From contig JAJZLX010000253.1 in NCBI GenBank assembly GCA_021850555.1, positions 1-40,904 of the forward strand: DNA of 40,904 nucleotides, written 5' to 3'. A model generated the notes under the pieces. The model saw only the letters and a list, made by a program, of their open reading frames with translations, did no database searches and was not told the origin of the DNA. Position 1 is the stretch's first letter. Every line of letters starts with the position of its first letter. Source of the DNA: Pseudomonadota bacterium (lineage in GTDB: Bacteria; Pseudomonadota; Gammaproteobacteria; Steroidobacterales; Steroidobacteraceae). The translations under genes were made by a program, and so were the position numbers. Below are positions 17,492-36,004 of this stretch, one piece after another.

Positions 17492-18526
17492 TCAGGGTAT
17501 GGACCCCCCGCTTTCCCGAACCGATCGATAACCCACAATGAGCTCCCCGTCCCGATGAGTGACGGTGATGGGCTCGATTCGGGCAATGCGCTCGAGCGTG
17601 GCGTCGACGTTTCGGACGCTGAACGCTCCGCCGATCCTCATCCGCGCGGCGCGTGGATCGGCGATGACGATGCGCTGGGACGTGTAACGGCTGAGATTGC
17701 CGATGAATCGCGACAGCCGCTCTCCCCGGGTCTCGATCATGCCCTGGCGCCAGCGAATGACGCTCAGGGCGCGCACGGGGTGCACATCGGCCACCAAGCC
17801 CACCGGGGAGTACTCGATCTGCTCGTTGCTGGTGAGCCGGCGGCTCCAGGACGGCCGTGCGGCCGGCACGCTGCCCAGTCCCTCGACCGACACCTTGCCG
17901 CTCACCACGGTGACGACGACGTTGCCATCCGCCTTCTGGTACACGTCGAATCGCGTACCGAGCACCTGCACCTCGCTGTGTGCCAGCAGGATACGGAACG
18001 GGCGGCTTGGGTCGTGCACCACTTCGAAGAACACCTCCCCGCCGAGCAGCCGAACCCGCCGATTCTCGGGACTGCCTATCCATTCCAGCCGTGTACGCGT
18101 ATTGAGGTAGGCGACGCTGCCGTCAGGCAGCACGACACTGTGCATCTGCCCGACCCCGGCCCGATACATCCGAGGCAGATAGCCCTGGTCGTTCAACCAC
18201 AGCCACCCGACCATCACGGCGGCGAGCACGGCGACCACCGTCACCGCGGAGAGCCACAAAAAACCCGCCCGCGGGCGCTTGCACGACGCCGTCTCGGCGA
18301 TGCTCTCGAGCACCTCGGCCTTCACAGGACCCGTGAGGTCCGCCGCAACATCGCATATGGCCCGCAACTCGCGGAATTCCCGTGCATGCAGCGGCTCGGC
18401 GAGCCAAGCGGTAAAGGCGTACCGGCGCCGCGGGGCGAGGGGCTCGTCCAGGGAGACCACCCACGCCGCCGCCTGCCCGCGCACACGGCGGCACCGCCAC
18501 CCGGAAAGCAATCCGCCGAAACTCAA
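17492..18526 (-). CDS. FecR-family anti-sigma / sigma regulator
   Basis: FecR proteins cross the inner membrane and relay a signal from a TonB-dependent receptor to a FecI-type sigma factor. The N-terminal cytoplasmic part spans about residues 1-85. A single transmembrane segment follows (FLWLSAVTVVAVLAAVMVGW), then the FecR domain (VVLPDGSVAYLNTRTRLEW...VRLLGGEVFFEVVHDPSRPF). The C-terminal end has an STN-like fold (LSRFIGNLSRYTSQRIVIAD). The start is TTG at 18526, overlapping the sigma stop as TTGA, which suggests translational coupling. The likely partner receptor is at 19518-22511, which carries an STN domain. Confidence is high for the family, moderate for the pairing. Confidence 0.88.
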   Translation of the reverse strand: MSFGGLLSGWRCRRVRGQAAAWVVSLDEPLAPRRRYAFTAWLAEPLHAREFRELRAICDVAADLTGPVKAEVLESIAETASCKRPRAGFLWLSAVTVVAVLAAVMVGWLWLNDQGYLPRMYRAGVGQMHSVVLPDGSVAYLNTRTRLEWIGSPENRRVRLLGGEVFFEVVHDPSRPFRILLAHSEVQVLGTRFDVYQKADGNVVVTVVSGKVSVEGLGSVPAARPSWSRRLTSNEQIEYSPVGLVADVHPVRALSVIRWRQGMIETRGERLSRFIGNLSRYTSQRIVIADPRAARMRIGGAFSVRNVDATLERIARIEPITVTHRDGELIVGYRSVRESGGSIP

Positions 18527-19092
18527 TCGACCTCCGCCAAATCAATGCCTTGAGACGATAACCTCGTACGACACTGCTTCAATGCCCGGGTCATGCGCTT
18601 ATCGACCCGCTTCTCAGAGATACCGAGCCGACCGGCGATCTCCTTGCGCGATTTGCCCTGGACATGCGCCATGACGAACACCTCACGCAGAGTCGGGCGC
18701 AGTCCCTTGATGACCTGCATCAGGTGCTTTCCGATCTGATCGGCCAGGACTTTGCGCTCCGGGCCCAGATCCTGGTCGGGGACCTCTTCCATTCCCGCGG
18801 ACCCCGCGAACAGCGTGCTCTCCAGCCGCCGCCGCCTAAGACGCATGAGGGCGAAATTGGTCGCGATCTTGAACAGCATCGCGCGCGGGAACTCGAGCTG
18901 CTCCGGGCGATACATCCTTTGCAGCTTCTCGTAGGCATCCTGAGCCACCTCACGGGCCAGATCCGCTCTGCCGAGCATCTGGGTGAGGTATGCGAGCAAC
19001 TGTGCCTCATTGGTCCGGCACAGCCGCGCGAAAAATTCGTTGCCCCCCCCTGTTCCGGGGAAACGTCTCACTTCGCCCAATGTCTTGTCCAT
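18523..19092 (-). CDS. ECF sigma factor, FecI type
   Basis: The 189-residue protein has sigma region 2 (AREVAQDAYEKLQRMY, then RAMLFKIATNFALMRLRRRR) and region 4 with a helix-turn-helix (GLRPTLREVFVMAHVQGKSRKEIAGRLGISEKRVDK). It lacks sigma regions 1 and 3, as expected for ECF factors. AAGGA lies about 7 nt before the ATG. It is coupled to the downstream fecR-like gene and divergent from the lasso precursor gene. The 246-bp space between the two starts is AT-rich around 19170-19200. It probably directs transcription of the receptor or precursor once released by FecR. Confidence 0.88.
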   Translation of the reverse strand: MDKTLGEVRRFPGTGGGNEFFARLCRTNEAQLLAYLTQMLGRADLAREVAQDAYEKLQRMYRPEQLEFPRAMLFKIATNFALMRLRRRRLESTLFAGSAGMEEVPDQDLGPERKVLADQIGKHLMQVIKGLRPTLREVFVMAHVQGKSRKEIAGRLGISEKRVDKRMTRALKQCRTRLSSQGIDLAEVD

Positions 19093-19154
19093 TCCCTATT
19101 CCTTGCCTACTTAGATGCGGCGGCGGAGCTCTCCCCCCACCCCGGCGAAAGATT

Positions 19155-19182
19155 TTGCGGTCGGCGCCCGTTACGCTAGACT
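19155..19182 (+). promoter_or_regulatory. Candidate promoter for the lasso precursor gene
   Basis: TTGCGG (19155-19160) and TAGACT (19177-19182) are spaced by 16 bp, a moderate sigma-70-like match. An AT-rich partial palindrome TTATTGAACATAA follows at about 19184-19196, within the divergent region shared with the sigma factor gene. I could not recognise an ECF-type promoter with confidence. Confidence 0.35.
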
Positions 19183-19338
19183 ATTATTGAACATAATGTG
19201 GCCAGGCGTACCGCGAGCATGCCCGAGGAGCTGCTTGAGCGTATGCTCTGGACAATGAGCCTGCGCAGGCGCCCATCGCGGCCGCCGATCCGGCGCGGGT
19301 AACAGATGTTGTGCGGTAACGGCAGGAGAAGTGGAGCC

Positions 19339-19512
19339 ATGAATACTCCCAAGAATGACGACCGGCTGCAGGCGATTGAGACGGATCAGGTTGAGCAGGC
19401 CGCTCAAGGTGAGGAGGCGGGGAGCCTGACGGAGCTCGGCAAGGTCTCCGACACCCAAGGGGGCATCTTCGGCTACAAGGTCGACAGCGGGCTTGGCTGG
19501 CAGTACTTCTGA
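19339..19512 (+). CDS. Lasso peptide precursor (A)
   Basis: The 57-residue precursor begins MNTPKNDDRLQAIETDQ and has an acidic leader of 40 residues. The leader ends SLTELGKVSDTQ, with Thr at position -2, the residue lasso leader peptidases require. The predicted core is GGIFGYKVDSGLGWQYF. Gly1 is the nucleophile and Asp9 would close a nine-residue macrolactam ring. Trp14, Tyr16 and Phe17 are bulky and could lock the threaded tail. AGGAGA lies 9 nt before the ATG. An in-frame start at 19306 is possible but lacks a leader-like sequence. The matching B and C enzymes are at 22524-25195. A cut after Gly41 would give an eight-residue ring but misplace the Thr. Confidence 0.85.
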   Translation: MNTPKNDDRLQAIETDQVEQAAQGEEAGSLTELGKVSDTQGGIFGYKVDSGLGWQYF

Positions 19513-19517
19513 TCGCC

Positions 19518-22511
19518 TTACCATCTCTCGGTCAGGTCCAGGCTGAGCACGCGTCCCAGGGCCTGGAAGTTGGCGATGTCGTAGCCGAATTGGCTGTTGA
19601 CGAAGGGCGGAGCGTGGTTCAGCACGTTCACCACGTTCAGCGACAGATCGGTGCTGCCCGACCGAAACGCGCCGGCCATCCGGTAGGCCACCAGCGCATC
19701 CACCGTGGTCCAAGCTGACACGTTGGACAGCGTGGTGCCGGCGGGATTGCGGTACGCACCGGTGTAGTTGATGGCCAGGTGCAACAGCCACCCCGGCCGA
19801 TCCGGCCCATGACGGCTCCACTCGACCGTGCCCCGCAACCGCAGCGCCAACGGGTTGGCCACGGTATTGAGAATGCTGACCGGCGGGGAGGTCGGGGTCA
19901 CCGTCTGCAGGAAACGGAACACGTAATTGCCTTCGAGCCCGAAGGCGAATTGGCCCCAGCGACTCGCGAATCGCTCATGGGCTTCCAGGTCGAGCCCGCT
20001 GGTGCGGGTGGCGGCCAGATTGGCGAGGCGCAGATCGATGATGGCCGCCGGCCGGCTCGACAGACAGCTCACCGCTGAGCCGACGAACTCGGGGCTTTCG
20101 CATACCGCCGCGATCTGCGCTTGGGTGGGATCGCGTGTGATCACCGCCGCCCACTCGGCCGCATGATCGAGGATACCGAGAGGGTCGGCGGCGGCGGGTT
20201 GCTCGATGCGGTTGAAGTAATCGATGGCGTAGTAAGTCAGCGACACCTCCGATCCTCTCCCGGGCGCCACATCCATCCCCGCCGTCCAGGTCTGGGCGGT
20301 CTCCTGGCGCAGGTTCGGGTTGTTCCCCTGCTCACCCAGCACCAGGGATCGTCCGGTGGAGGACTTGGGATCAGACAGCACCGTCATGAAGGCGATGTTC
20401 TGCGAGGCGTCGTAGAGATCATCGAGCTTCGGCGCCCGGAATGAGCGGCCCCAGCTGCCGCGCAGCTTCAGCCAGTGCGCCACGGTCCACTGCAGGCGCG
20501 CGGTGGGATTGAAGGTGCCGCCGAAATCGCTGTAGTGGTCGTACCGGCCCGCGAGGCCCAGCACCAGCCGCGGGGTCGCGCGCCGGTTGTGCGCATCCCC
20601 CACCAGCGGCACGTCGAGCTGGGAGAACACCGACCAAACATGGCGCCCGTACCGCGCGGCGGTCGGAAGCCCTTGCGGATCCGGCACGACTTGATGGAGC
20701 GTTTCGCTCCTGCGCTCCACGCCCACGGCAAGCTTCGCCTCCCCCGCCGGCAATCGCATCAGGGGCCCGTTCGCAACGAGGTCGCTCTCCTCGATGCCGT
20801 CGCTCGAATGCAGCCGGTAGTCGCGGCGGATGTGGGCCAGGGTGGCCGGGCTGGTGAATGAGCCGTCGCCGAAGGGATCGAACGCGGTGGCCGGGTTGGA
20901 GTCGGCCAGGGCGGCCGCGAGCTGCTGGGGATCAGGCACGTTGTATTCATCGTCGAGCAGGGATTGGTTGCCGGTGGACTCGCTCAACGTGGCCTCCCAG
21001 CCGCCGCCCAGCCGAGCCGTGAGGCCGAGCGTGCCCATGTACACGCGCGAGCGGGAAGCAAACCGGGTCGGGCCGAAGTCGCTCTGGAAGCTGTAGGAGA
21101 CCAGCGTATACGGCACGCCGGCATAGGGATTGACGTAGAAGGGGTTGGTGGCCGGTACGGTCAGCACCTGCTGATCCGGCCGGGTGCTCAGCTGCGTGTC
21201 CCGCTGGGCGTATCGGGCCTGTACGAACACCTTCAGTGCGCCGGTCAGGTCCTGCGAGGCCGCGGCGTAGAACTCGTGTGCTGTGCGCTCGGGAAAGATC
21301 TGGAACCGGGCGAAGGGGTTCTGCAGATTTATGCTCGAGGTGAGCTCGCCCGCGGTCAGCGCCTTGCCGTCCTGGCCGGCGGGGATACCATAGGCCGGCA
21401 GCAAAGTCAGGGGATCGAGAATATTGCCCGGGTTGCTGTAGTAGCTGTCGTAATTGGCGCCACCGTAGGGAGTCTTGTCGGCATTGGCCGCATACGGCCG
21501 GTTCGCCGCCGCCAGCGGCGTCGCATCGGAATATTCGTACGCCAGCATGGCGTGCCCGCCCTTCCAGCCGGCACCGAGCAGCTGCGAGACCACTGTCTCG
21601 GCACGCCCGTCCGGCGCCGTGGCGTACCTGACGTCTGTTTCGGCACCCTTGAACCGATTGCGCATGATGATGTTGACCACGCCGGCGATCGCGTCCGAGC
21701 CGTACAGCGCCGAAGCGCCATCAGGCAACACTTCGATGCGCTTGACGGCGCTCCACGGGATGGTCGACACGTCGACGAAATCGCCCGTCAGTCCTCCGAG
21801 CGGCTGGCGGTAACCGTTGACCAGCACGAGCGTGGCCCCGACCCCGAGGCCGCGCAGATTGATGCCGGCCCCATACTGGTAGTTATCGTCGACACCCAGG
21901 TCCTCGCGCGGGCCATCCATCGATACGAGCGGCAGCTCGTACAGGGCGTCCTGCACCGTGGCGTAGGCCGCCTCCGACAGCTGTTGATGCCTTATGTAAA
22001 GGAGCGGGGCCGACACGTCCTGTACGCCGCGGATGAGGCTGCCGGTCACCTCCACCTCCCGGAGCTGGCCGCCACCCGGTTGCGGATTGGAAGGGGCACG
22101 GGCGGGGCGCCGCGCGGCCTGGGCGCGCGAGGCCGGCGCGCCCCGGGGGCTCGCGGCAGACGCCGGCCGGATGATGACCGAGCGCTCGCCATCGAAAACG
22201 AAAGTGAGGCCGGTGCCCCGCAGCATCCGCGCCAGGGCAGTAGCACTGCTCATCAGGCCGGAGACTTCCCGGGTTTGGATCCTCTCGACCCGCGCCGTCG
22301 CCGCATAGATCGCCTGGACGCCCGACTGATGGTAGAAATCGAGTATGGCCTGGGGGAAAGGCTCTGAGGGAAGGTGGAACCGCTGCAGCGGCCCATTGGC
22401 CCAGGCCGGAGCGCTGAGCAGCGCCGCCAGAGCGAGGCAGGCGCGGCGCGCCCCCGCCGCGCGAAGAGACCTCGTATCCTCGCCCCTCGAGGCTTGATTG
22501 GTTTGATCCAT
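19518..22511 (-). CDS. TonB-dependent outer-membrane receptor with STN signalling domain
   Basis: The signal peptide is LRAAGARRACLALAALLSAPAWA. An STN domain covers about residues 43-115 (LQRFHLPSEPFPQAILDFYH...LTFVFDGERSVIIR). A linker, then a plug (VQDALYELPLVSMDG, LRGLGVGATLVLVNGYR, RIEVLPDGASALYGSDAIAGVVNIIM) and a 22-strand-type barrel follow, with the C-terminus LSLDLTERW. STN receptors contact a FecR-type protein and start transenvelope signalling; the FecI/FecR pair is at 17492-19092. The gene lies 12 bp downstream of the lasso cyclase in one operon, and its stop is 5 bp from the precursor stop. It probably imports or senses the lasso peptide or a complex of it. Confidence 0.92.
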   Translation of the reverse strand: MDQTNQASRGEDTRSLRAAGARRACLALAALLSAPAWANGPLQRFHLPSEPFPQAILDFYHQSGVQAIYAATARVERIQTREVSGLMSSATALARMLRGTGLTFVFDGERSVIIRPASAASPRGAPASRAQAARRPARAPSNPQPGGGQLREVEVTGSLIRGVQDVSAPLLYIRHQQLSEAAYATVQDALYELPLVSMDGPREDLGVDDNYQYGAGINLRGLGVGATLVLVNGYRQPLGGLTGDFVDVSTIPWSAVKRIEVLPDGASALYGSDAIAGVVNIIMRNRFKGAETDVRYATAPDGRAETVVSQLLGAGWKGGHAMLAYEYSDATPLAAANRPYAANADKTPYGGANYDSYYSNPGNILDPLTLLPAYGIPAGQDGKALTAGELTSSINLQNPFARFQIFPERTAHEFYAAASQDLTGALKVFVQARYAQRDTQLSTRPDQQVLTVPATNPFYVNPYAGVPYTLVSYSFQSDFGPTRFASRSRVYMGTLGLTARLGGGWEATLSESTGNQSLLDDEYNVPDPQQLAAALADSNPATAFDPFGDGSFTSPATLAHIRRDYRLHSSDGIEESDLVANGPLMRLPAGEAKLAVGVERRSETLHQVVPDPQGLPTAARYGRHVWSVFSQLDVPLVGDAHNRRATPRLVLGLAGRYDHYSDFGGTFNPTARLQWTVAHWLKLRGSWGRSFRAPKLDDLYDASQNIAFMTVLSDPKSSTGRSLVLGEQGNNPNLRQETAQTWTAGMDVAPGRGSEVSLTYYAIDYFNRIEQPAAADPLGILDHAAEWAAVITRDPTQAQIAAVCESPEFVGSAVSCLSSRPAAIIDLRLANLAATRTSGLDLEAHERFASRWGQFAFGLEGNYVFRFLQTVTPTSPPVSILNTVANPLALRLRGTVEWSRHGPDRPGWLLHLAINYTGAYRNPAGTTLSNVSAWTTVDALVAYRMAGAFRSGSTDLSLNVVNVLNHAPPFVNSQFGYDIANFQALGRVLSLDLTERW

Positions 22512-22523
22512 GTTCCCTGCCGC

Positions 22524-24353
22524 TTAAGCGGGAGTCTGCCACAGGGCGCGGTCCGGTGAGGAGATACCGCTCACCCAACGCCGCACCCAGGCCTCGACGC
22601 CGGCGTACTCCAGCAGCTCCGCGGACTCGGTCTCGATCTGCGCCCGGCCCGAGAGGGCGAGCTCGAGCCGCCCCGGATCGATCAGCCCCTCGCGAACCAA
22701 CCCGCCCTGCCACAGCAGCTCGCGCAGCAAGCCGCGGTTGCGCTCGACGGTGAGCCGCAGTTGCGCCTCCATGCCGCCCTTGTTCCGGCGGTTGCGGACT
22801 TCGGGCGGCAATTCCCCGTAAAAGGCCCGCCGCGCGATTGCCCGGTCCCAGCCGCCCGTTGTCAGCACGTCGATGGGTATGCGAAGACACAACTCCATCA
22901 ACGGCTGTGACAGCAACGGCGCGACCCGCTCCGGGTCGGCCGGCTCCCCGAGCGGGTCGTAAAAGTCGAACGGCGCGACGATCTGGTGAGCATGGAAGAG
23001 CTTTCCGCTCGGCGCGCCGCGCCGTGGCCGCAGCAACGGGTGAAGACAGTCCTGCGCCCGGATCGCCTCGATCACCGCCGCGCGGGACAACAAGGGCCGG
23101 CCCCTGCCCGCCTCCCGCGCGGGACTCCACCGGCGGCGACCGACAAAGGCGCCGAGCGTGACCCCCAATACCCGCCACACGGACAGCTCATCCATCCGCG
23201 CCGACTCGAGCAGCACGCGGCCCCAGCCGGGCCGCAGGCCGCGCCGGCGCAGGAACTCCTCCGGGGCCCACAGCGCGCACTCCTGGTAGAAGAGCTGGTC
23301 CCCCCCGTAGCCGATGAACACCGCCTCCGAAGCCGACTCGGCGGCCTGTGCGGCCTCCGGACGGCTGTGTTCCAGATAGTATGGATAGTTGGTCGGCTCG
23401 GGCGTGGGATGGATCGAAAGCAGCGGCTGCAGGCTGAACCCCGGCGGCCGAGGCCGCTCGAGCAGAGTCAGGCCGGCGGCCGCGGCCGCGGCGCGCGCGA
23501 ATCGGCGCTCGTCGAGATCCGCCTCCAGCGGGTAGTAGTGATAACAGTGCAGCCGCGGGCCCGCGGCGCGGGCGAGGCTCGCGAGGATGATCGATGAATC
23601 GAGCCCTCCGGAGAGCGACAGCAGCACGCTGCGATAGCAACCGGCCCACGCGCGCACCACGTCCCTGACACATTGGCTCATCGCTTCGGCGGCCTGACCG
23701 GCATCCTCGAGCACGTCCGCGGCGATCGAGAGAGGGTCCCAGTAAAACCGCCGCGCCACCGAGCGCGGCCGGATCTCGACACACTCCCCCGCCAGCAGCT
23801 GAGTCACCTCGCGCAACCCGGTCCGGGCGCAGTGCTCGCGCATCCGGCAAAGGCCGGCGATGAGATAGGACCAGTCGATCGTCAGGGACATTGCGCGCAG
23901 CGGCAGCACGTCCTCGATCCACGAGAAGTACAGATCGACCGCGCCGAGGCGCAGCGTATAACAGGGCAGGGCGCCGGACGGATCGCGAAGCACCCATCTG
24001 GTGTGCGAGCCGGTCTCGCGCAGAAACGCCACGTAACGGCCCCAGTACTGCTCGACCAGGCGGCGGCCGCCGCTTGCGAGCAGCGCGCGGCTGTCGCGCT
24101 CCCCGAAGGCGGCCGGCGCAGGCCTCGAGCCGTCCGCCCCCCTTGCAAAGAGTCTGCCCAGCACCACGCCCTCACCGCCGGCGAGCCGATACACCTCGCA
24201 TGAGCCGGGCCGCAGGCCCGCGCAGCGCACCTCGATGCCGCGCCCGTTCAGCACCGTCTGCCAGCCGGGCGGAAGCGGCGAGAGCAGTGCGTGCGCCTGT
24301 TGGCGGGCGTCCGGGTCCTCGTCATTCCAGGTACAGGCGACATAACGAAACAT
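22524..24353 (-). CDS. Lasso peptide cyclase (C), asparagine synthetase-like
   Basis: This enzyme should activate the core Asp side chain with ATP and join it to Gly1. The N-terminal glutaminase-like domain begins MFRYVACTWND and lacks an N-terminal catalytic Cys, as in other lasso cyclases. The ATP pyrophosphatase motif SLSGGLDSSI is at about residues 245-253, and GYGGDQLFYQ is near residue 350. The C-terminal part carries RNRRNKGGMEAQL, typical of the family. The start is the ATG at 24353, 2 nt after the B stop; an earlier in-frame start at 24536 overlaps B heavily. It has 609 residues and is the middle gene of the B-C-receptor operon. Confidence 0.9.
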   Translation of the reverse strand: MFRYVACTWNDEDPDARQQAHALLSPLPPGWQTVLNGRGIEVRCAGLRPGSCEVYRLAGGEGVVLGRLFARGADGSRPAPAAFGERDSRALLASGGRRLVEQYWGRYVAFLRETGSHTRWVLRDPSGALPCYTLRLGAVDLYFSWIEDVLPLRAMSLTIDWSYLIAGLCRMREHCARTGLREVTQLLAGECVEIRPRSVARRFYWDPLSIAADVLEDAGQAAEAMSQCVRDVVRAWAGCYRSVLLSLSGGLDSSIILASLARAAGPRLHCYHYYPLEADLDERRFARAAAAAAGLTLLERPRPPGFSLQPLLSIHPTPEPTNYPYYLEHSRPEAAQAAESASEAVFIGYGGDQLFYQECALWAPEEFLRRRGLRPGWGRVLLESARMDELSVWRVLGVTLGAFVGRRRWSPAREAGRGRPLLSRAAVIEAIRAQDCLHPLLRPRRGAPSGKLFHAHQIVAPFDFYDPLGEPADPERVAPLLSQPLMELCLRIPIDVLTTGGWDRAIARRAFYGELPPEVRNRRNKGGMEAQLRLTVERNRGLLRELLWQGGLVREGLIDPGRLELALSGRAQIETESAELLEYAGVEAWVRRWVSGISSPDRALWQTPA

Positions 24354-24355
24354 GA

Positions 24356-25195
24356 CTACACCAGCAGGATGGGCGAGTACTGTCGGACGCGATCCGGAGA
24401 GTCGTTGAACAGCACCTCGCCCCGCTGAACCCAGCAATGCGCATCGAAGGGCGCCGTCCTGACACCGAACACCCACTCCGGATACACTCCGGAGGCGGCG
24501 AGGAAGTGCACCAAGGTCAGCGAATCGAGCAGGCACGCGCGCCGGACGGTGTAGAAAAGCGGGCGCAGATGCACGAAAGTCATCAGCAACTCCCGCTCGC
24601 GCTTCGGATCGGCCCCATGCGCTGCCTGGGGCAGATGCGCCTTGCGCGCACGCACGCCGGCGACGATGGAGTGGATGGGGCGCAGCGCGAGGGAGGATCG
24701 CGCCCGCACCCAGGCAAGCGCGAAGCGCCGCAGATCAGCGGCGCTCGCCATCGGCGGCCGGTCGAAATCGAACTCGAGCAAGGTGCGCTGCACGACCGGG
24801 AGAGCGAGCGGAGTGGCGGGCCGGCCCGCCCCCGCGCCTTGCACCAGCATGCCCTGCGCAAGCAGCTTCGAGAGCAGAGCCGGGGCGCGTGGGCCGTGCG
24901 GGCCCGCCCGCCCGCTCCCGGAGGCGGCCTGTGCCGGCGCCTCCGCGCCCGGCCAACCGCGCACCCAGCCGGCCAGCAGATGGGCCGGCTGGGCCGCGAC
25001 GTATCGATCGCGCCGCAGGTCCATCAGCACTACATGCCGGCCGCAGACGCACAGATGCACGTGCGGCGCGAGCAGGTACGGTGCTTCGCCATCGTCCACG
25101 GATGTATCCCCCCTGTCCTCGCCATTTTCCTGCCGCGCTCCGAGGCGCGGGCGGGACCCGCCCGGCGCGCCTTGCGCCGCTCCCCTCTCTAGCAT
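24356..25195 (-). CDS. Lasso leader peptidase (B), fused RRE and transglutaminase-like protease
   Basis: B binds the leader and cuts it from the core. After about 40 variable residues, the segment YLLAPHVHLCVCGRHVVLMD looks like the PqqD-like recognition element (RRE). The C-terminal part is the transglutaminase-like protease: Cys221 in RRACLLDSL, His253 in FDAHCWVQ and Asp265 in LFNDSPDRV form the expected triad. Single-chain B proteins of this kind are usual in proteobacterial lasso clusters. The ATG at 25195 has GGAGG 5 nt upstream. A GTG at 25099 has AGGGGGGA upstream and would start just before the RRE, so either start is possible. It is the first gene of the operon. Confidence 0.88.
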   Translation of the reverse strand: MLERGAAQGAPGGSRPRLGARQENGEDRGDTSVDDGEAPYLLAPHVHLCVCGRHVVLMDLRRDRYVAAQPAHLLAGWVRGWPGAEAPAQAASGSGRAGPHGPRAPALLSKLLAQGMLVQGAGAGRPATPLALPVVQRTLLEFDFDRPPMASAADLRRFALAWVRARSSLALRPIHSIVAGVRARKAHLPQAAHGADPKRERELLMTFVHLRPLFYTVRRACLLDSLTLVHFLAASGVYPEWVFGVRTAPFDAHCWVQRGEVLFNDSPDRVRQYSPILLV

Positions 25196-25291: not shown

Positions 25292-26473
25292 ATGTCCCAA
25301 CCCTCCCCTGCCGGCGTACCGCGCGCCGGGCAAGAAATCGATTGGAGCGCCTGGCGCGGCGGATTCCCGCTGCTCAAGCGCAAGGTGTACCTCAACAGCT
25401 GCGCCTACGCGGCGATGGCGCAATCGGTCTCCGCGGCCCTCGGCGCCTATCTGGCAGCCCGCGAGGAGTCCGGATGCGCCTGGGACCTCTGGGTCGAGCG
25501 CTACGAGACGCTTCGCCTGTCGCTCGCCTCGCTCCTCGGAGCCGGGCTCACGGAAATCGCGATCACTTCCTCGGTGTCCGCCGCGCTCAACGCCATCGCC
25601 AGCGGCCTGCGTTTCGACAGCCCGCGCAACCGGATCGTGATCACCGACCTCGAATTCCCGACCCACGGCCAGATCTGGCATGCCCAGGCCGCGCGCGGGG
25701 CCGAGATCGTGCAGATCCCCTCGAGCCGGGGCCGGGTCGACCCCGAGCGCTTCGCCGAGGTGGTCGACGAGCGCACCTTGCTGGTGGCCACCTCGGAAGT
25801 CTGTTACCGCAACGGTGCGCGGCTGCCGATTGCACAGATCGCCGATATCGCGCACCGCAACGGCGCATTGCTCCTCGTCGACAGCTACCAGGCCATCGGC
25901 ACGGCGCGCGAGAGCGCGCGCGATCATGGCGCGGATATCATCGTCGGCGGCATGATGAAGTACCTGCTGGGCACCTCCGGCATCGCCTTCGCCTGCGTGG
26001 CGGCGAGCCTCATCGAGCAGATCTCACCCACCGCAACCGGTTGGTTCGCTCAGCAGGACATCGGTGCCATGGACGCCACGGCGCACCACCCCTCCCTCAC
26101 CGCCCGGCGCTTCGAGGCGGGCACACCGCCGGTCGCGAACGTGTACATGGCCGAGGAGGGGCTGAGGATCATCCGCGAGATCGGCCTCGGTGCCATAGAG
26201 GAACGGATCAGCGGCCTGACCGAGCGTATCAAGCGGCGCGCGCTGGAGGCCGGATACACACTGGCCACCCCGCAGCAGCACGGGGCGATGATCGCGCTCG
26301 CTGCCCCGGACTCCCCCGCCCTGGTCGCCGCGCTCGCGCAGGAAGGCATTCTCGCCTCCACTCGCGACGGAAATCTTCGGATCTCAACGCATTTCTACAA
26401 CGATGAGTCGGACATCGACGCCCTGTTCGATGCGTTGCGCAGACACGAGCGCCTGATGCCAAGGATGGGCTAG
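25292..26473 (+). CDS. Class V aminotransferase-fold PLP enzyme
   Basis: The fold is that of cysteine desulfurases, kynureninases and isopenicillin N epimerase-like proteins. The N-terminal FPLLKRKVYLNSCAYAAMAQ is followed by ITSSVSAALNAIASGL (PLP phosphate site), LLLVDSYQAIG (Asp for the pyridine nitrogen) and GGMMKYLLGTSGIAF (Schiff-base Lys). FEAGTPPVANVY is also typical. The exact reaction cannot be read from sequence. It is divergent from lasso gene B, 96 bp apart, so it could belong to the lasso locus or be an unrelated neighbour. No Shine-Dalgarno sequence is seen. Its TAG stop shares the palindrome CTAG with the stop of nagE. Confidence 0.82.
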   Translation: MSQPSPAGVPRAGQEIDWSAWRGGFPLLKRKVYLNSCAYAAMAQSVSAALGAYLAAREESGCAWDLWVERYETLRLSLASLLGAGLTEIAITSSVSAALNAIASGLRFDSPRNRIVITDLEFPTHGQIWHAQAARGAEIVQIPSSRGRVDPERFAEVVDERTLLVATSEVCYRNGARLPIAQIADIAHRNGALLLVDSYQAIGTARESARDHGADIIVGGMMKYLLGTSGIAFACVAASLIEQISPTATGWFAQQDIGAMDATAHHPSLTARRFEAGTPPVANVYMAEEGLRIIREIGLGAIEERISGLTERIKRRALEAGYTLATPQQHGAMIALAAPDSPALVAALAQEGILASTRDGNLRISTHFYNDESDIDALFDALRRHERLMPRMG

Positions 26474-28323
26474 CCGGGCGCTGCGATGAGCTCCCGCAGC
26501 GCGAGGCACGCCGATTGCGCGGCCGGACCCACGATGACGTGTACACAATCCGGCGCCACCACCGCCGCGCCGCGCAAGCCCAGACGCTCGATGGCGGCTT
26601 GGTCGACCCCTGCAACGTCCGCCACCGACACCCGAAGTCTCGAGGCGGCGCTCTCGACGACGCGCACGTTGTCACCACCGCCAAGAGCGGCCAGTAATTT
26701 CTCGATGACCGGCTTTCTGAGCGCGGCGACCTCCGGCACAGGCGTGGCGGGCGCGCCGTGCAGATCCGACACGGGCCGCCCTGCCCTGCCGCCCTGGGCC
26801 GGGGCGGCCTGCGGCAGAATCGCCAGCACCTCGCGGATCTCCCCGGCGAGCAGCTCCGCGGTGGGGCCCACGATCACCTGCAGCGCGCTCGCCGAGGGAC
26901 GCACGATGCCCATCGCGCCCAGTCGCTTCAGTGCCCGCGTGTCCACAGCATCCTGGGCCCGCACGGTCAGACGCAATCGGGTCGTACAGGCGTTGACGTC
27001 CTCGAGATTGGCGGGGCCCCCGAGCGCCGCGAGGTAAGCACCGGCCCGATCGGTCGGATCCGCAGTGCGGGCTGCGGCCGTGCCGGCGGTCGTCCCCGAC
27101 GGCAGACCGCCCGGTGCGCCGAGCTCCCCCGGCTGCCCGGCGCCCTGCGGCTCGGTCTCTTCCCTGCCCGGGGTCTTCAGATCGAACCTGACGATCGCGA
27201 AGCGGAAGATGCCGTAATACAGACCGAAGTAAAGCGCTCCCACCGGTAGCAGCAACAGGGGGTGGGTGGCGTGGTTGTAATTGAGTACGTAATCGAACAG
27301 CCCGGCCGAGAAGCCGAAGCCGAGCTTCACATCGAGGGCGTTCATGATGATGAAAGACAGGCCTGTCAGCAGGGCGTGCACGAGATACAGCCCCGGAGCG
27401 AGGAACATGAACGTGAACTCCACCGGCTCGGTTACCCCGGTGAGAAACGAGGTGAGCGCGATCGAGAGCAGCAATCCCGCCACCGCGCGGCGTCTTTCCG
27501 GCAGCGCCGCATGGTACATGGCGAGGCATGCCGCCGGCAGACCGAACATCATCACCGGGAAGAAACCGGCCATGAAGCTCCCCGCAGTCGGGTCGCCGGC
27601 GAAGAAGCGGTTCATGTCTCCGGTGACGCCGTGGTAATTGCCGACGATGAACCAAGCGAAGCTGTTGAGGATGTTGTGCAGCCCGGTGACGATCAACAGG
27701 CGATTGAGCACGCCGTAGACGAACAGGCCCCACGGCCCTGCGGCCAGCACCTCACGGCTGAGCACCTCCATGCCGTTCTCGATGTGAGGCAGCTCCAGAC
27801 CCAGCAGGATGGCGAACGGCAGCACCGCGAAGCCGGTGACGATCGGCACGAATCGCCGCCCGCCGAAGAAGGCGAGGTAACTGGGCAGCCTGATACGGTG
27901 GAAGCGATTGTACAGCGTCCCAGCGAGAAGCCCCGAAACGATTCCCACCGGCACGGTGAGCTGCAGGAGCTCCTTGTCCTTGAACGCCGCCGCCACCAAC
28001 ACCCGGGCGTGCTCCGGAACGCCGGCGAGCGCGGCGGCGGGGGCTGAAATGAGCACCGCCGCCCCCTTGATCGTCACCAGGTACCCCACGACCGCGGCCA
28101 GGCCCGCGGCTCCGTGATTGTCGCGGGCGAGGCCGATTGCCACGCCGACCGCGAACAGCAGTCCGAGGTTGCTGAAAATGGCCTGGCCGGCGTGGGCCAT
28201 GACCGGGATGTTGAGCAGATCGGGCTGGCCGAGACGCAGCAGCAGCGCGGCGGCGGGCAGCACCGCGATCGGCAGCATCAGGGCGCCGCCGAGCTTCTGC
28301 AGCGGGTTGAGCAGTTGCTTCAT
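26470..28323 (-). CDS. nagE: N-acetylglucosamine PTS permease EIIC-EIIB with a second, Cys-less EIIB
   Basis: The membrane EIIC domain (about residues 1-370, MKQLLNPLQKLGGALMLPIAVLPA) has about ten hydrophobic segments and the glucose/GlcNAc family motifs GDMNRFFAGDPTAGSFMAGF and TGVTEPVEFTFMF. A Pro/Gly/Thr-rich linker leads to EIIB1, with the phosphorylated Cys in NACTTRLRL near residue 440. A second EIIB-like copy at about residues 535-612 has ESAASRLRVSV, with Ala in place of Cys, so it cannot carry phosphate. No EIIA is fused; it is supplied by the upstream gene. GAGG lies 8 nt before the ATG. It is the last gene of the receptor-chitinase-PTS operon. Confidence 0.92.
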   Translation of the reverse strand: MKQLLNPLQKLGGALMLPIAVLPAAALLLRLGQPDLLNIPVMAHAGQAIFSNLGLLFAVGVAIGLARDNHGAAGLAAVVGYLVTIKGAAVLISAPAAALAGVPEHARVLVAAAFKDKELLQLTVPVGIVSGLLAGTLYNRFHRIRLPSYLAFFGGRRFVPIVTGFAVLPFAILLGLELPHIENGMEVLSREVLAAGPWGLFVYGVLNRLLIVTGLHNILNSFAWFIVGNYHGVTGDMNRFFAGDPTAGSFMAGFFPVMMFGLPAACLAMYHAALPERRRAVAGLLLSIALTSFLTGVTEPVEFTFMFLAPGLYLVHALLTGLSFIIMNALDVKLGFGFSAGLFDYVLNYNHATHPLLLLPVGALYFGLYYGIFRFAIVRFDLKTPGREETEPQGAGQPGELGAPGGLPSGTTAGTAAARTADPTDRAGAYLAALGGPANLEDVNACTTRLRLTVRAQDAVDTRALKRLGAMGIVRPSASALQVIVGPTAELLAGEIREVLAILPQAAPAQGGRAGRPVSDLHGAPATPVPEVAALRKPVIEKLLAALGGGDNVRVVESAASRLRVSVADVAGVDQAAIERLGLRGAAVVAPDCVHVIVGPAAQSACLALRELIAAPG

Positions 28324-28347
28324 GAGAATGTCCTCGTGGGGCCGCGC

Positions 28348-30936
28348 TCAGGCGCCGCTTGAAGCCGGCTCGCCGACGCCGCCGGCCACGGCGGCACGGA
28401 GCGAGCGCACCGCCTCGGCCGACCCCAGCGAGAGCGCCTTGCGCGCGAGGCGCGTGCACTCCTCCATCGTCAGCCCGCCGATGTACGCCTTCAGGCGCGG
28501 AATGGCCGACGGCACGCAGGACAGCTCGCGCACCCCCAGGCCGATCAGGATGGGCGCGGCCGCGGGATCGGAGGCGAGTCCGCCGCAAACGGCGAGCGGG
28601 CGATTACGGGATCCGGCCGCCTCCGCGGTGCGCCCGATCAGCCGCAGCACGGCCGGATGCAGCGCATCGAGCCGGGCGGCGAGCTGCGCGTGGCCGCGGT
28701 CCATCGCAAGCGTGTACTGGGTGAGGTCATTGGTCCCGATGGAGAAAAAATCCGCTTCCTCGGCCAGCGCTTCGGCCATCAACGCCGAGGCCGGCGTCTC
28801 GATCATCACGCCGATCTCGGCCGCCTCGCTGCGCCCGATCTGCCGCGCGGCCTGTTCCGCGAGCACGCGCACCGAGCGGATCTCCGCCGCATCGGTGACC
28901 ATGGGTACAAGGATCCGGCACTGGCCGAACGGTTGCACCGCCAGGATGGCGCGCAGCTGCGCGCCCAGCAGATCCGGACGCCACAGGCTGGTACGCACCC
29001 CGCGCAGGCCGAGCGCGGGATTGTCCTCGCGAGGCAGTGGCAGGTAGGGGATCGGCTTGTCGCCGCCGATGTCGAGCGTGCGGATGGTGACGGGCCTGCC
29101 GGCGAGCGCCGCGGCGATCGGTTGGTACTCGGCAAGCTGCTCGGCCTCGGTCGGAGCGTCCCTCCGATCGAGGAAAAGGAACTCGGTGCGCAGCAGCCCG
29201 CAGCCCTCCGCACCATTGCGCACGGCAACCTGGGCTTCGGCCAGCGAGCCGACGTTGGCCAACACCTCGATGCGCACGCCGTCGGCCGTGCGGCATTCGC
29301 GCTGCGCCGCCTGCCGCTCGAGCGCATCCCGCCTCACCGCCCAATCGATCCGGCGACGGGCGCCCTCGAGGCGCTCCTCCCCCGGATCGACGTGCAACAC
29401 TGCGGCATCCGCATCCAGAATCAGGGCCGTTCCATCGGCGATGCGCCGCAGGGAGGGGCCGAGTGCCACGAGCGCCGGAATCCCGAGCGCAGCCGCGAGA
29501 ATCGACACATGGGAGGTGGCCCCACCGGCGGCAAGGCAGATCCCTCCCGGCTTGCCGGCATCGACACCGAGCAGTTGCGAGGGCAACAGCTCCTCTGCGA
29601 TCAGGATGGTGTTCCCCGAGAGCGCAAGCGCCGACTCGACCCGCTCACCGCTCAAGGCCGAGAGCACCTGCCGCTCCAGATCGATCAGATCATCGGCCCG
29701 CTCGCGCAGGCGCGGGTCGTCCAAACCGCCCAACACCTCCACACTCTCACGGATCGAGCATCGCCAGGCGAACGCGGCGCTCGCGCCGCCGGCGATCTTC
29801 GAGAGCGCCCGCTGCGAAAGCTCCGGGTCGTCTATGAGCGTCAGATGCGCCTCGATGATCTCGCGCGCGGCGCCCGAGGCCGTCCCGAGCGCCCGCTGCA
29901 ATGCCGAGTGAACTCGCTCGCGCGCGCGATGCAACTCTGCCGTCTCGCGCTCGACGCCCGCGCCGGCCTCGCTGACCTGTATGTCCTCGCCCGCTAAAAC
30001 CCGCGCGGTGCCGACCGCCAGCCCACGGCTGGCGGTGACTCCCGGGAGTGTCGCGCCCGGCGCTGGAGCCACGACCGGTGCGGGCCGCGTGTCGCACGGC
30101 GGCGATGATTGCGCCGGGACCTCGACCTGCCGCTGCGCCCGGGTGTGCGATCCGCTCGGCCGCCCATCCCTGCTCTGCCCGGCCTGCAGCACCGCGGCAA
30201 CCGCCTCGGCCGCCGCCGCCGCATCAGCGCCCGAGGCGAAGATCTCGATCTGTCCGTCCCTCGGCACACCCAGCGCCATGAGCGCCACGGTGCTGCGCGC
30301 GTTGGCCTCGCGTCCGCGGGCACTCAGCATGACCTCGGCGTCGAAGGCCTTCAGAGCGGTGACCACTCGAGCAGCGGGCCGGGCATGGATTCCATGCTCG
30401 AGCCCCACCCGCACGCGCAGCCGGATGCCCTCGCCCGCCTCGAGCGGCAGGGTCTGCGCCTCGCCGGGCCGCGAGGGCACAACCGCCTCAAGCTCCATGA
30501 GCACATCGCCCACCGCCACCCCCCGGCCCTGCGTGCGGCGGTGAATGGCGAACACGCCACCTTGCAGCACCAGCACCGGTGTAAGCAGGCTCCTGGCCCG
30601 GCATGCGAGACGGTCGAGATCGAAGCTGATGAGCGCATCCCCCGCTCGAACCACCTGCCCGGCTTCGATGTGGCTCACGAACCCCTCGCCCCGGAGCTCC
30701 ACGGTATCGATTCCGACGTGCATCAGCACATCGGCTCCGTAGGGCGTGCGCAGCGTGACGGCATGCCTCGATTGCGCCAGCGCGGCCACCACTCCATCGC
30801 AGGGCGCATGCAAAGTGGCCCCGAGCGGATCGATCGCGAGCCCATCGCCGAGCATGCGTGCGCAGAATACCGGGTCGGGAACCTCCTCGAGCGGCGCACT
30901 CCAGCCGGCGAGCGGTGACAGGAGGACGTGGGTCAT
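28348..30936 (-). CDS. nagF: Multidomain PTS phosphotransferase EIIA-HPr-EI
   Basis: Three PTS proteins are fused. The EIIA-Glc-type domain (residues 1 to about 155) has VLMHVGIDTV with its active His. HPr (about 170-260) has LEHGIHARPAARVV with the active His and a regulatory-type Ser in NARSTVALMAL. EI (about 300-850) has GGATSHVSILAAALGIPAL with the phospho-His, IGTNDLTQYTLAMDR and CGGLASDP near the end. It would pass phosphate from PEP to the EIIB of the next gene. The start ATG overlaps the chitinase stop as ATGA. The same architecture is known for NagF/FruB-like proteins in Pseudomonas and Xanthomonas relatives. Confidence 0.93.
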   Translation of the reverse strand: MTHVLLSPLAGWSAPLEEVPDPVFCARMLGDGLAIDPLGATLHAPCDGVVAALAQSRHAVTLRTPYGADVLMHVGIDTVELRGEGFVSHIEAGQVVRAGDALISFDLDRLACRARSLLTPVLVLQGGVFAIHRRTQGRGVAVGDVLMELEAVVPSRPGEAQTLPLEAGEGIRLRVRVGLEHGIHARPAARVVTALKAFDAEVMLSARGREANARSTVALMALGVPRDGQIEIFASGADAAAAAEAVAAVLQAGQSRDGRPSGSHTRAQRQVEVPAQSSPPCDTRPAPVVAPAPGATLPGVTASRGLAVGTARVLAGEDIQVSEAGAGVERETAELHRARERVHSALQRALGTASGAAREIIEAHLTLIDDPELSQRALSKIAGGASAAFAWRCSIRESVEVLGGLDDPRLRERADDLIDLERQVLSALSGERVESALALSGNTILIAEELLPSQLLGVDAGKPGGICLAAGGATSHVSILAAALGIPALVALGPSLRRIADGTALILDADAAVLHVDPGEERLEGARRRIDWAVRRDALERQAAQRECRTADGVRIEVLANVGSLAEAQVAVRNGAEGCGLLRTEFLFLDRRDAPTEAEQLAEYQPIAAALAGRPVTIRTLDIGGDKPIPYLPLPREDNPALGLRGVRTSLWRPDLLGAQLRAILAVQPFGQCRILVPMVTDAAEIRSVRVLAEQAARQIGRSEAAEIGVMIETPASALMAEALAEEADFFSIGTNDLTQYTLAMDRGHAQLAARLDALHPAVLRLIGRTAEAAGSRNRPLAVCGGLASDPAAAPILIGLGVRELSCVPSAIPRLKAYIGGLTMEECTRLARKALSLGSAEAVRSLRAAVAGGVGEPASSGA

Positions 30937-32096
30937 GAGCGTGGCTTGGCCGGCGCGAGGTGCGACACCAAGGCGTTCAACAGGGAGTTGCGCGCATCGT
31001 CCTCACCGAGCACCCAGATCATAACCCCACGCAGATGCGCACTGCGCACGAAGGCGGCCTTGATGGCCATCGAGCGCGGATCGTCATAAGTGAAGAAGAT
31101 GTGCCGTGCGCCATTGTAGAGCCAGGGCGCCTCGGCGGTAGCGCTCCAGTGACGCACCCAGCGCGGGCTGGTGAGCATCCGCGACTCGATCACTTTCCAG
31201 GGCGTCTCCGGGAAGCCTCCGGTGAAGCGCGAATACAGCCCCGCATGCCGCGCCGAGACACCGGAGAAGCCCCGTCCGTAGAATGCCACGCCCAGCATGA
31301 TCTTGTCCGCCGGCACCCCGTGCGCCTCATAATAGCGCACCGCCCCGACGAGAGTGTCGCGCGAGCGCTCCGGCTCGGGCGCCGGATCGCGCGGATCCGG
31401 CCTCATCGGGGCATTGAAGCCGCTGTAGGGGCTGAAGACGGTGTTCATATCGTAGGTCATGACATTCAGCCAGTCGACGTACGGCACGAGCGCGGCCAGA
31501 TCGTAGCTGTCGCTCACTGAGTACGCCCCGCCCTTCTGCCAGGTGCCGGCCGGAGTGGCCACGGTGAGGAGGTAATGACGGTGGGTGTTGCGGCCGAGCG
31601 CATCGAGCCGCATTCTGAGCTCACGCACAAGCGCGGTGGCGTCCGCCCGGTCCTGGGGACGGGACTCGCTCATCCCGCCACGCACCGGGAACTCCCAGTC
31701 GATATCCAGGCCGTCGAATCGCTGCTGCTCGATGAACAGCCGGATGCAGCTGCGGGCGAATTTTGCGCGCGAAGCGGCTGTGAGGGCGATATCGGAGTAC
31801 TGGGGCGCGGCATTCCAGCCGCCGATCGACACGAGCAGCTCCAAGCCCGGGTGCAGCCGGCGAAGCCGGCGCAGTTCGCTGAACGTTCGCCGCTGCGCGG
31901 CGGTCGGCGCCGAGCACACGCCGCGCGCATCAGGCTCTCCAAAGGCGTAGAAGATCGTGTCGAGCTTACCTGCCGGGATATCCGCCACCGGCATGCCGCC
32001 ATCGTAATAGGCGGCAATCTGCGGCGCCGTACCGGCCCGCGCGGCGGCGGCGCCGAGCAGGCCCGCCAAAAGAACACTGAGCAGCGAAGATCTCAT
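30933..32096 (-). CDS. Secreted glycoside hydrolase family 18 chitinase
   Basis: The signal peptide MRSSLLSVLLAGLLGAAAARA points to export. The GH18 catalytic motif DGLDIDWEFP (DxxDxDxE) gives the acid Glu. LLVSIGGWNAAP, WLNVMTYDMNT and IMLGVAFYGRGFSGV are family segments, and FTYDDPRSMAIKAAFVRSAHLRGVMIW closes the barrel. The 387-residue product has no carbohydrate-binding module, so it probably cuts soluble chitooligosaccharides. The start is the ATG at 32096 with GGGGGA 8 nt upstream; a GTG at 32120 is in frame. It overlaps nagF by 4 nt and follows the receptor gene. Confidence 0.93.
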   Translation of the reverse strand: MRSSLLSVLLAGLLGAAAARAGTAPQIAAYYDGGMPVADIPAGKLDTIFYAFGEPDARGVCSAPTAAQRRTFSELRRLRRLHPGLELLVSIGGWNAAPQYSDIALTAASRAKFARSCIRLFIEQQRFDGLDIDWEFPVRGGMSESRPQDRADATALVRELRMRLDALGRNTHRHYLLTVATPAGTWQKGGAYSVSDSYDLAALVPYVDWLNVMTYDMNTVFSPYSGFNAPMRPDPRDPAPEPERSRDTLVGAVRYYEAHGVPADKIMLGVAFYGRGFSGVSARHAGLYSRFTGGFPETPWKVIESRMLTSPRWVRHWSATAEAPWLYNGARHIFFTYDDPRSMAIKAAFVRSAHLRGVMIWVLGEDDARNSLLNALVSHLAPAKPRS

Positions 32097-32140
32097 AGGG
32101 GCATCCCCCAAATCCTGCACCCGAACGCCCCCGATGCCGG

Positions 32141-32157
32141 CCCCGCCGCAGGCGGGG
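32141..32157. repeat. Hairpin in the receptor-chitinase intergenic space
   Basis: CCCCGCC (32141-32147) and GGCGGGG (32151-32157) form a perfect 7-bp stem with a 3-nt loop in the 100-bp gap of the operon. It lacks a T tract. It may stabilize the receptor mRNA end and lower expression of the downstream genes. Confidence 0.5.
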
Positions 32158-32196
32158 GAGGTGTCCGCAGCGGGCCCGGCACGGGGGCGCCCTTCC

Positions 32197-34893: not shown

Positions 34894-35071
34894 GACTTCT
34901 TTCACCCCGATGATGTTGTCGTTTTCGAGACCGCCCTGGCGCACCTTTCCACCCCAACTGGTCCCATTGACCGCGCGGCGCTTGCTCCACGGCGGCCGGT
35001 TCAATCCGTGCCGCGACACTCCCGCCGCCTGCGACTTCCGTTTCGCAGGGATACCGTTGTGTAGACACCAC

Positions 35072-35105
35072 ACTGGTACCATTTAGATGCCAGTGTAATA
35101 CCAGT
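35072..35105. promoter_or_regulatory. Operator cluster upstream of the receptor gene
   Basis: CCAGTGTAATACCAGT (35090-35105) reads ACTGGTATTACACTGG on the minus strand. ACTGGTACC lies beside it at 35072-35080, with arms ACTGG/CCAGT around it. The same 16-bp motif recurs at 35208-35223 with two mismatches. HutC-type GntR regulators of amino-sugar genes bind TGGT/ACCA-type sites, so the product of 35265-36002 is the likely binder. Confidence 0.6.
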
Positions 35106-35133
35106 TTCATAAAAAATCTATACCAATCTCCGT

Positions 35134-35162
35134 TTGACGGATCGATTATTAATTTTTATAAG
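35134..35162 (+). promoter_or_regulatory. Strong sigma-70-type promoter for gntR-nagB-nagA
   Basis: TTGACG (35134-35139) and TATAAG (35157-35162) each match the consensus at five of six positions, with a 17-bp spacer. The predicted start near 35169 gives a leader of about 95 nt that includes the operator at 35208-35223. Confidence 0.65.
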
Positions 35163-35207
35163 TAATTACAGTGCATTATCAGATAAAAATAGATGGGAGT
35201 GGCGCAA

Positions 35208-35223
35208 ACTGGTATTGCAGTGG
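35208..35223. promoter_or_regulatory. Operator copy in the gntR leader
   Basis: ACTGGTATTGCAGTGG matches the receptor-side motif ACTGGTATTACACTGG at 14 of 16 positions. It is followed by a further partial copy, AGTGGTATTATG. The site lies downstream of the gntR promoter, consistent with autorepression. Confidence 0.55.
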
Positions 35224-35264
35224 TATTATGTCGGCGATCCATATTCCAGCGCGGGAGCGGAGCC

Positions 35265-36002: not shown

Positions 36003-36004
36003 CC

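Follow-up and report, generated by a model that had tools for sequence, protein, structure and literature searches.

A predicted lasso peptide gene tail to tail with a TonB-dependent receptor gene in Steroidobacteraceae, and relatives that keep the receptor without the biosynthetic genes

What a lasso peptide may do for a cell that encodes a receptor right next to it is the question raised by the locus described here. The window, i.e., the whole analyzed stretch of 40,904 nucleotides from a member of the Steroidobacteraceae, comes from a soil-type bacterium with a gene set for making a small knotted (lasso) peptide, with a receptor gene adjoining the peptide gene. The preliminary description of this DNA listed a precursor (A), a leader peptidase (B), a cyclase (C), a TonB receptor with an STN domain, and a FecI/FecR pair, and this gene set is confirmed (Table 1). 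The tail-to-tail arrangement of A and the receptor gene, the occurrence of the two as a unit elsewhere, and the existence of receptor-only relatives come in addition to that description. A search of the open-licence literature, with most subscription papers lying outside it, found no convergent precursor/receptor pair, moved pair, or receptor-only relatives.

Table 1. Features of the lasso peptide locus (positions in the window)
Feature	Position	Strand	Basis or remark
FecR-type anti-sigma factor	17492..18526	-	PF04773 and PF16220 over cut-off; 6ovk/6ovm matches
FecI-type ECF sigma factor	18523..19092	-	TIGR02937, PF08281, PF04542; divergent from A
Divergent intergenic region FecI/A	19093..19338	.	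Contains TTGAACATAAT; upstream alignment
A leader, 40 aa, ends ...KVSDTQ, Thr at -2	19339..19458	+	Sequence, relatives
A core GGIFGYKVDSGLGWQYF and stop	19459..19512	+	Predicted Gly1-Asp9 macrolactam
TonB-dependent receptor, N-terminal STN domain	19518..22511	-	Convergent with A, 5 bp between stops
STN signaling domain of receptor, residues 44-118	22158..22382	-	Match to 2a02
C, asparagine-synthetase-like lasso cyclase, SGGLDSS	22524..24353	-	PF00733, alignment A1
B, leader peptidase (RRE and transglutaminase-like)	24356..25099	-	NF033537, PF13471
RRE (B1) domain of B, residues 38-120 (ORF numbering)	24836..25084	-	Predicted structure

The B, C, and receptor genes follow one another on the minus strand with spacings of 2 bp (B end at 24356, C start at 24353) and 12 bp (C end at 22524, receptor start at 22511), and the FecI and FecR genes lie further downstream on the same strand. 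The precursor gene is located on the plus strand, between the receptor and FecI genes. The TTGAACATAAT motif is found in 7 of the 13 aligned regions upstream of A. One flank of the locus contains csrA (named by us from its sequence), a GGDEF protein gene, and an L-serine dehydratase gene, and the other an aminotransferase-V gene followed by a GlcNAc PTS/chitin region. This region of GlcNAc/chitin use (26470-38187) encodes a PTS EIIBC, an EIIA-HPr-EI fusion, and a GH18 protein, along with a second TonB receptor, a GntR/UTRA regulator, a SIS protein, and an amidohydrolase. The aminotransferase gene (25292-26473) was considered as a source of a tailoring enzyme and rejected, with matches to the query in only 8 of the 57 mapped loci; it adjoins B as a whole gene in the window, L002, and L004 and is present only in fragments in L001, L003, L018, L029, and L131. 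The Pfam scan of the 35 ORFs of the window revealed no peptidase or hydrolase of the isopeptidase kind, no match to ABC_tran or ABC_membrane that would indicate an ABC exporter (D gene), and no immunity gene. Likewise, no GntR-like cluster regulator precedes A in the window, where the sole GntR/UTRA gene is the one in the GlcNAc region (35193-36002).

Leader peptidase B scores 76.2 bits against NF033537, the curated lasso B2 model (cut-off, 33). Its ORF is open up to an ATG at 25195, with the GTG at 25099 being the likelier start, judging from alignment A5 and the sequence. The Cys221-His253-Asp265 triad and the RRE, both listed in the preliminary description, are borne out, the former by an alignment of 27 rows in which Cys and His are invariant and Asp is present in at least 90%, and the latter by a predicted structure (pLDDT of at least 90 in most blocks, low at residues 81 to 110), via matches to 6jx3_B, 5v1u_A, and 5v1v_A. 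Sequence searches of solved structures returned just two unrelated chains for B (E values above 0.9) and no match for C (P0002, alignment A1). The assignment of C as an asparagine-synthetase-like cyclase with an SGGLDSS motif also holds: it matches PF00733 with 83.5 bits, and its S246 and S248-S253 are invariant in the 26 rows of alignment A1. Its score with NF033535, the NCBI lasso cyclase "exception" model, is 64 bits, far under the cut-off of 525. Relatives of C comprise 690 proteins at an E value of 0.001 or less among the 7,992 scored; among the 120 listed, the named organisms are mostly Steroidobacteraceae and otherwise Gammaproteobacteria or "Pseudomonadota bacterium."

The predicted mature peptide has 17 residues and, with a Gly1-Asp9 ring, a computed monoisotopic mass of 1874.899. 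Protein relatives of A, 11 besides the window copy, could be identified, and Thr-2, Gly1, Gly5, and Asp9 are invariant in the alignment of 16 rows, so that the Thr at -2 and the Gly/Asp9-type core noticed previously are kept in relatives. The precursor thus combines the Thr-2, the Gly1, and the acidic residue at ring position 7 to 9 that mark lasso precursors; the core in the window contains neither Cys nor His. Two divergent candidate precursors were also noticed (L128:11761-11931 and L020:13799-13942), of which one carries its ring Asp at position 8 (GGFIGGPD...) and the other has a Trp-rich tail (GYLSGLAYDGGYWWWG). Given that B exceeds the cut-off of the B2 model, C belongs to the matching cyclase family, and the motif of A is conserved, lasso biosynthesis, as proposed initially, is well supported by sequence, the product and its threading being predicted.

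Residues 44 to 118 of the receptor match 2a02, an 82-residue chain named ferric-pseudobactin 358 receptor, with an E value of 1e-6; we take this chain to be the signaling domain of PupA. The Pfam STN match falls under its cut-off, and the mean pLDDT of the predicted receptor structure is 53.8. FecI scores 75 bits against TIGR02937 (cut-off, 42.9). The periplasmic part of FecR matches 6ovk (E value of 2.6e-15), presumably the PupB-PupR complex, and 6ovm. These matches agree with the early assignment of an STN-bearing receptor and a FecI/FecR pair, and we infer signaling through STN, FecR, and FecI. PMC7186176 deals with such a sigma regulator.

The association of A with the receptor gene was followed in 217 genomes, the family of G001, nearly all of them metagenome-assembled according to the record titles where shown and with completeness unstated. 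Using a model built mostly from copies that adjoin receptors, A was found in at least 28 genomes (E value of 1e-4 or less), a C-like match in at least 50 (1e-60 or less; canonical lasso clusters included), and a receptor match in at least 40 (1e-120 or less; distant ones included), these counts being lower bounds, since up to 30 candidates for A, 5 for C, and 3 for the receptor were scored per genome. The receptor gene adjoins A on the same contig, in convergent orientation, in 27 of the 28 A-bearing genomes, and in the remaining one (G006), A lies ∼220 bp from the contig end. The gap between the two stop codons is 5 to 70 bp in 14 of the 15 measured loci, to which the window with its 5 bp does not belong, and 346 bp in L001. 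Receptor matches without A are found in 12 of the 40 genomes (G022, G031, G035, G039, G043, G055, G102, G132, G141, G178, G180, and G210) and are mostly distant (34 to 46% identity), except for G022, G039, and G043. Of the 24 genomes that match C most strongly (E value of 4e-200 or less), 22 have a receptor; in the other two, G014 and G054, the cluster stops at the contig end, and neither A nor the receptor was found, which places them outside the pairing count. One contig search with C gave 54 loci. Many relatives of the window show the gene order B-C-receptor-A(antisense)-FecI-FecR-csrA-GGDEF-sdaA, to the extent that their contigs cover it.

Five loci (L005, L006, L008, L009, and L010) contain B-C-FecI-FecR with neither A nor the receptor gene in between. 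A search of 16 whole genomes with the A model detected A in 15, including the five split ones (G004, G005, G007, G008, and G009), in each of which A adjoins a receptor gene of the window's family on a contig other than that of B-C-FecI-FecR, and the pair is flanked by BtuF-like and AhpD genes. In G009, two contig ends carry A, which is probably a single gene. The five receptors form one clade (support, 100/100), and the joined order is found in G015, G016, and G141, which branch outside it in a tree drawn with a midpoint root, so a single transfer of the pair as a unit is the simplest interpretation. In the joined genomes G015 and G016, BtuF and AhpD are 0.6 and 2.5 kb apart, with no such pair between them. 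In L093, L094, L095, and L097, the moved receptor gene is immediately preceded by a gene for a BtuF-like periplasmic binding protein, and no match to it at an E value of 1e-40 was detected in any of the eight joined-type inner-clade genomes searched. The moved receptor genes (L093 to L097) share a conserved upstream stretch, GGTATCGC ... CTCTGGTA, with exact two-box parts in four of the five, which is a possible promoter; a simple scan for exact two-box motifs, in which the B starts were approximate, found no promoter motif common to B and the moved receptor genes, so control of both by FecI is no more than a proposal. Lasso precursors can therefore sit apart from B and C, and genome mining restricted to the vicinity of B-C would report such clusters as lacking a precursor.

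The biosynthetic genes are less persistent than the receptor gene. According to tblastn searches and ORF checks, eight genomes (G022, G040, G043, G044, G046, G047, G048, and G053) have only fragments of B-C, or none of it, at the cluster site; in G046, for example, only residues 19 to 218 of B remain, followed by C only from residue 569, on the upstream contig. G028 and G039 fall outside this count, their contigs ending before the B-C site. Seven of the eight retain an open receptor frame, with FecI and FecR open. This frame is uninterrupted from end to end in G022, G044, G047, and G053; G040 and G048 show it on two contig pieces that overlap, and G046 shows it on two pieces with 12 residues unseen. 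The receptor of G043 is devoid of residues 63 to 303, so the receptor is not always kept. The precursor is affected as well: the same searches did not find it in G022 and G043, it is frameshifted in G047 and G053 by one identical 1-base deletion, is devoid of Asp9 in G040 and G044, has Gly2 changed in G046, and is two residues short in G048. Where inspected (L037 and L124), the further C-like matches of these genomes belong to the canonical type. In the receptor tree of 31 rows, G048 is placed next to the window, G047 groups with G053, G040 groups with G044 and G046, and G022 and G043 (the latter with G039) are placed separately, which makes at least four losses of B-C, those in G022 and G043 possibly being one shared event. 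Given that nearly all genomes are metagenome assembled and their completeness is unstated, faulty assembly could account for some of the losses.

The receptors of these genomes are still under purifying selection. Those of G047 and G053 differ with a dN of 0.038 and a dS of 0.142 (dN/dS of 0.266; bootstrap, 0.20 to 0.36; 962 codons), and, owing to the identical deletion in A, this divergence most likely took place after the loss, without a peptide of their own; among the pairs that have lost B-C, this is the only one in which the loss is known to predate the split. Five pairs among the B-C losers plus G039 give dN/dS values of 0.20 to 0.32 (upper limits up to 0.47), which tend to lie above the 0.13 to 0.23 of nine producer pairs, so a slight relaxation is possible. 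For FecI and FecR, the values are 0.12 to 0.25 in two loser pairs versus 0.05 to 0.22 in four producer pairs, and FecR in the window compared with G048 is looser, at 0.388 (0.26 to 0.60). For C, seven intact pairs give dN/dS values of 0.13 to 0.28, which indicates purifying selection. The remnants of C provide a weak control with wide limits that points the expected way: 0.68 (0.33 to 1.66) and 0.65 (0.34 to 1.36) in two pairs versus 0.07 to 0.40, with some limits above 1, for the corresponding part of C in the seven intact pairs. G016 and G141, with their divergent candidate precursors, are outside the dN/dS set.

At most, the genomic data indicate that the peptide and the receptor are functionally tied and that the receptor is still useful to cells that have stopped making the peptide. 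Repeated loss of production in relatives that keep the receptor suggests that cells share the peptide and then take it back up or sense it. On balance, the 17-residue Gly1-Asp9 lasso peptide is probably a shared ligand of the adjacent receptor, which would signal via FecR and FecI, with some relatives living as takers that have only the receptor. By homology, B would bind the leader through its RRE and cut after Gln40, and C would close the Gly1-Asp9 ring with the SGLGWQYF tail threaded through it. The peptide would leave the cell by an exporter encoded outside the window and be bound by the adjacent TonB-dependent receptor, whose STN domain, as in homologous cell surface signaling systems, would act through FecR and FecI to raise expression of the system. 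Such a ligand, like methanobactin or a siderophore, may return something to the cell or report its own presence, and its shared use would allow some relatives to drop production. The sigma/anti-sigma homology is the only hint of iron, or of any cargo at all. The fuller version, in which the peptide is a public good that its own receptor retrieves or senses, A and the receptor gene are one inherited unit able to leave the biosynthetic enzymes behind, and several lineages have turned into receptor-only takers under continued selection, is put forward more tentatively, as a possibility on which we would not yet rely. The receptor could also serve a ligand other than the lasso peptide.

The best-surviving alternative, unlikely in our view, is that the peptide acts solely as a pheromone, which the receptor senses and through which FecR and FecI autoinduce the cluster with no cargo involved, so that the receptor-only relatives eavesdrop. 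The STN domain, FecR, FecI, the divergent orientation of A and FecI, and a core free of Cys and His would all fit this explanation. However, seven of the eight genomes with broken B-C have kept a barrel of a transporter family, and the lack of a shared promoter motif in the scan of B and the moved receptor genes also speaks against it.

An ordinary nutrient receptor, through which the peptide enters relatives as a narrow-spectrum antibiotic and which the receptor-only genomes keep for the nutrient, is a still less likely explanation. Microcin J25 enters by FhuA. Lasso antibiotics enter cells by TonB receptors (PMC13352647), and this, like the retention of the receptor without working peptide genes, would suit a toxin. 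On the other hand, the ORFs of the window include no recognizable ABC exporter or immunity gene, A and the receptor gene have stayed together at their second place, a linkage not required of a toxin and its target, and the producers themselves keep the receptor, save for G014 and G054, whose clusters stop at contig ends. Finally, a degenerate or non-lasso locus, in which B and C act on another substrate or on none, is very improbable: the low score of C with the "exception" model is offset by the score of B over its cut-off, by the conserved catalytic residues and precursor, and by purifying selection on C, and non-lasso roles of B and C were rejected because B fits the B2 model and has the triad and an RRE fold, and because the precursor is conserved.

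If the peptide is indeed a public good, this would provide a long-missing role for receptor-linked lasso peptides that have no antibiotic activity. The notion of a carrier or signal can be tested with one peptide, one receptor, and one receptor from a nonproducer. The unity of A with the receptor gene and the receptors that outlive production are a direct lead on the role of isopeptidase-linked lasso peptides with TonB receptors, which the review PMC9266682 describes as enigmatic.

Compared with known systems, the locus is a lasso cluster, but not of the usual isopeptidase type. Clusters of the latter type, as described in PMC9266682, contain a TonB receptor with sigma/anti-sigma genes, an isopeptidase, and a GntR-like gene; the earlier remark on the existence of lasso clusters that have TonB receptors and FecI/FecR was correct, but those clusters have an isopeptidase and this locus does not. 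The astexin, benenodin, and sphingopyxin clusters share with the window A, B, C, the TonB receptor, and the sigma/anti-sigma pair (PMC9266682), and an isopeptidase and a TonB-dependent receptor are named for the sphingocin cluster of Sphingomonas BPH (PMC11006600). The gene order of isopeptidase-type clusters, which include the isopeptidase and the GntR-like regulator, is nearly constant. Neither of these two genes was detected in the window, in which, unlike in those clusters, A converges with the receptor gene, and B, C, and the receptor gene are consecutive on one strand. The Rubrinodin cluster (PMC9266682) has an ABC transporter, an isopeptidase, a receptor, and FecI/FecR, of which the window has the receptor and FecI/FecR, with no ABC transporter or isopeptidase found. 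Metanodin BGC 89, from a soil metagenome, has its closest genome match in the Steroidobacteraceae, the family of the window, and its precursor required manual calling; however, it has colinear A, B, and C, an isopeptidase gene, and an Asn1 ring, and the word "TonB" is absent from the main text of that paper (PMC12670498).

Both lasso types coexist in several relatives, with canonical-type clusters found beside window-type clusters or their remains in L014, L015, L021, L023, and L037. L044 contains a canonical-type cluster, with an ABC relative adjoining, and no window-type one. Whole genomes of 24 relatives were searched with the isopeptidase model NF033523 (cut-off, 400), which was exceeded only in G023 (L050, Asticcacaulis); the best scores in G001 and G002 were 31.6 and 84.2 bits. 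The canonical-type cluster of L014 includes an ABC gene and a divergent isopeptidase-like gene that scores 56.5 bits and is missed by this cut-off, so the absence of the isopeptidase holds for the locus, not genome-wide. An ABC gene is found upstream of B in L014, L021, L023, and other loci, and may or may not be the exporter for window-type clusters, an ABC relative being present also in L044.

The FecA/FecR/FecI system has the STN domain, the FecR periplasmic domain, and a FecI homologue in common with the window, in which the ligand is instead a predicted self-made lasso peptide. The closest worked-out parallel is methanobactin uptake, in which MbnT2, a receptor with an N-terminal signaling domain, and MbnI2/MbnR2 import the methanobactin of another species (PMC9601215). 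Methanobactin binds copper and belongs to another peptide class, but it resembles the model proposed here in combining a peptide product, a receptor with a signaling domain, and an ECF sigma/anti-sigma pair.
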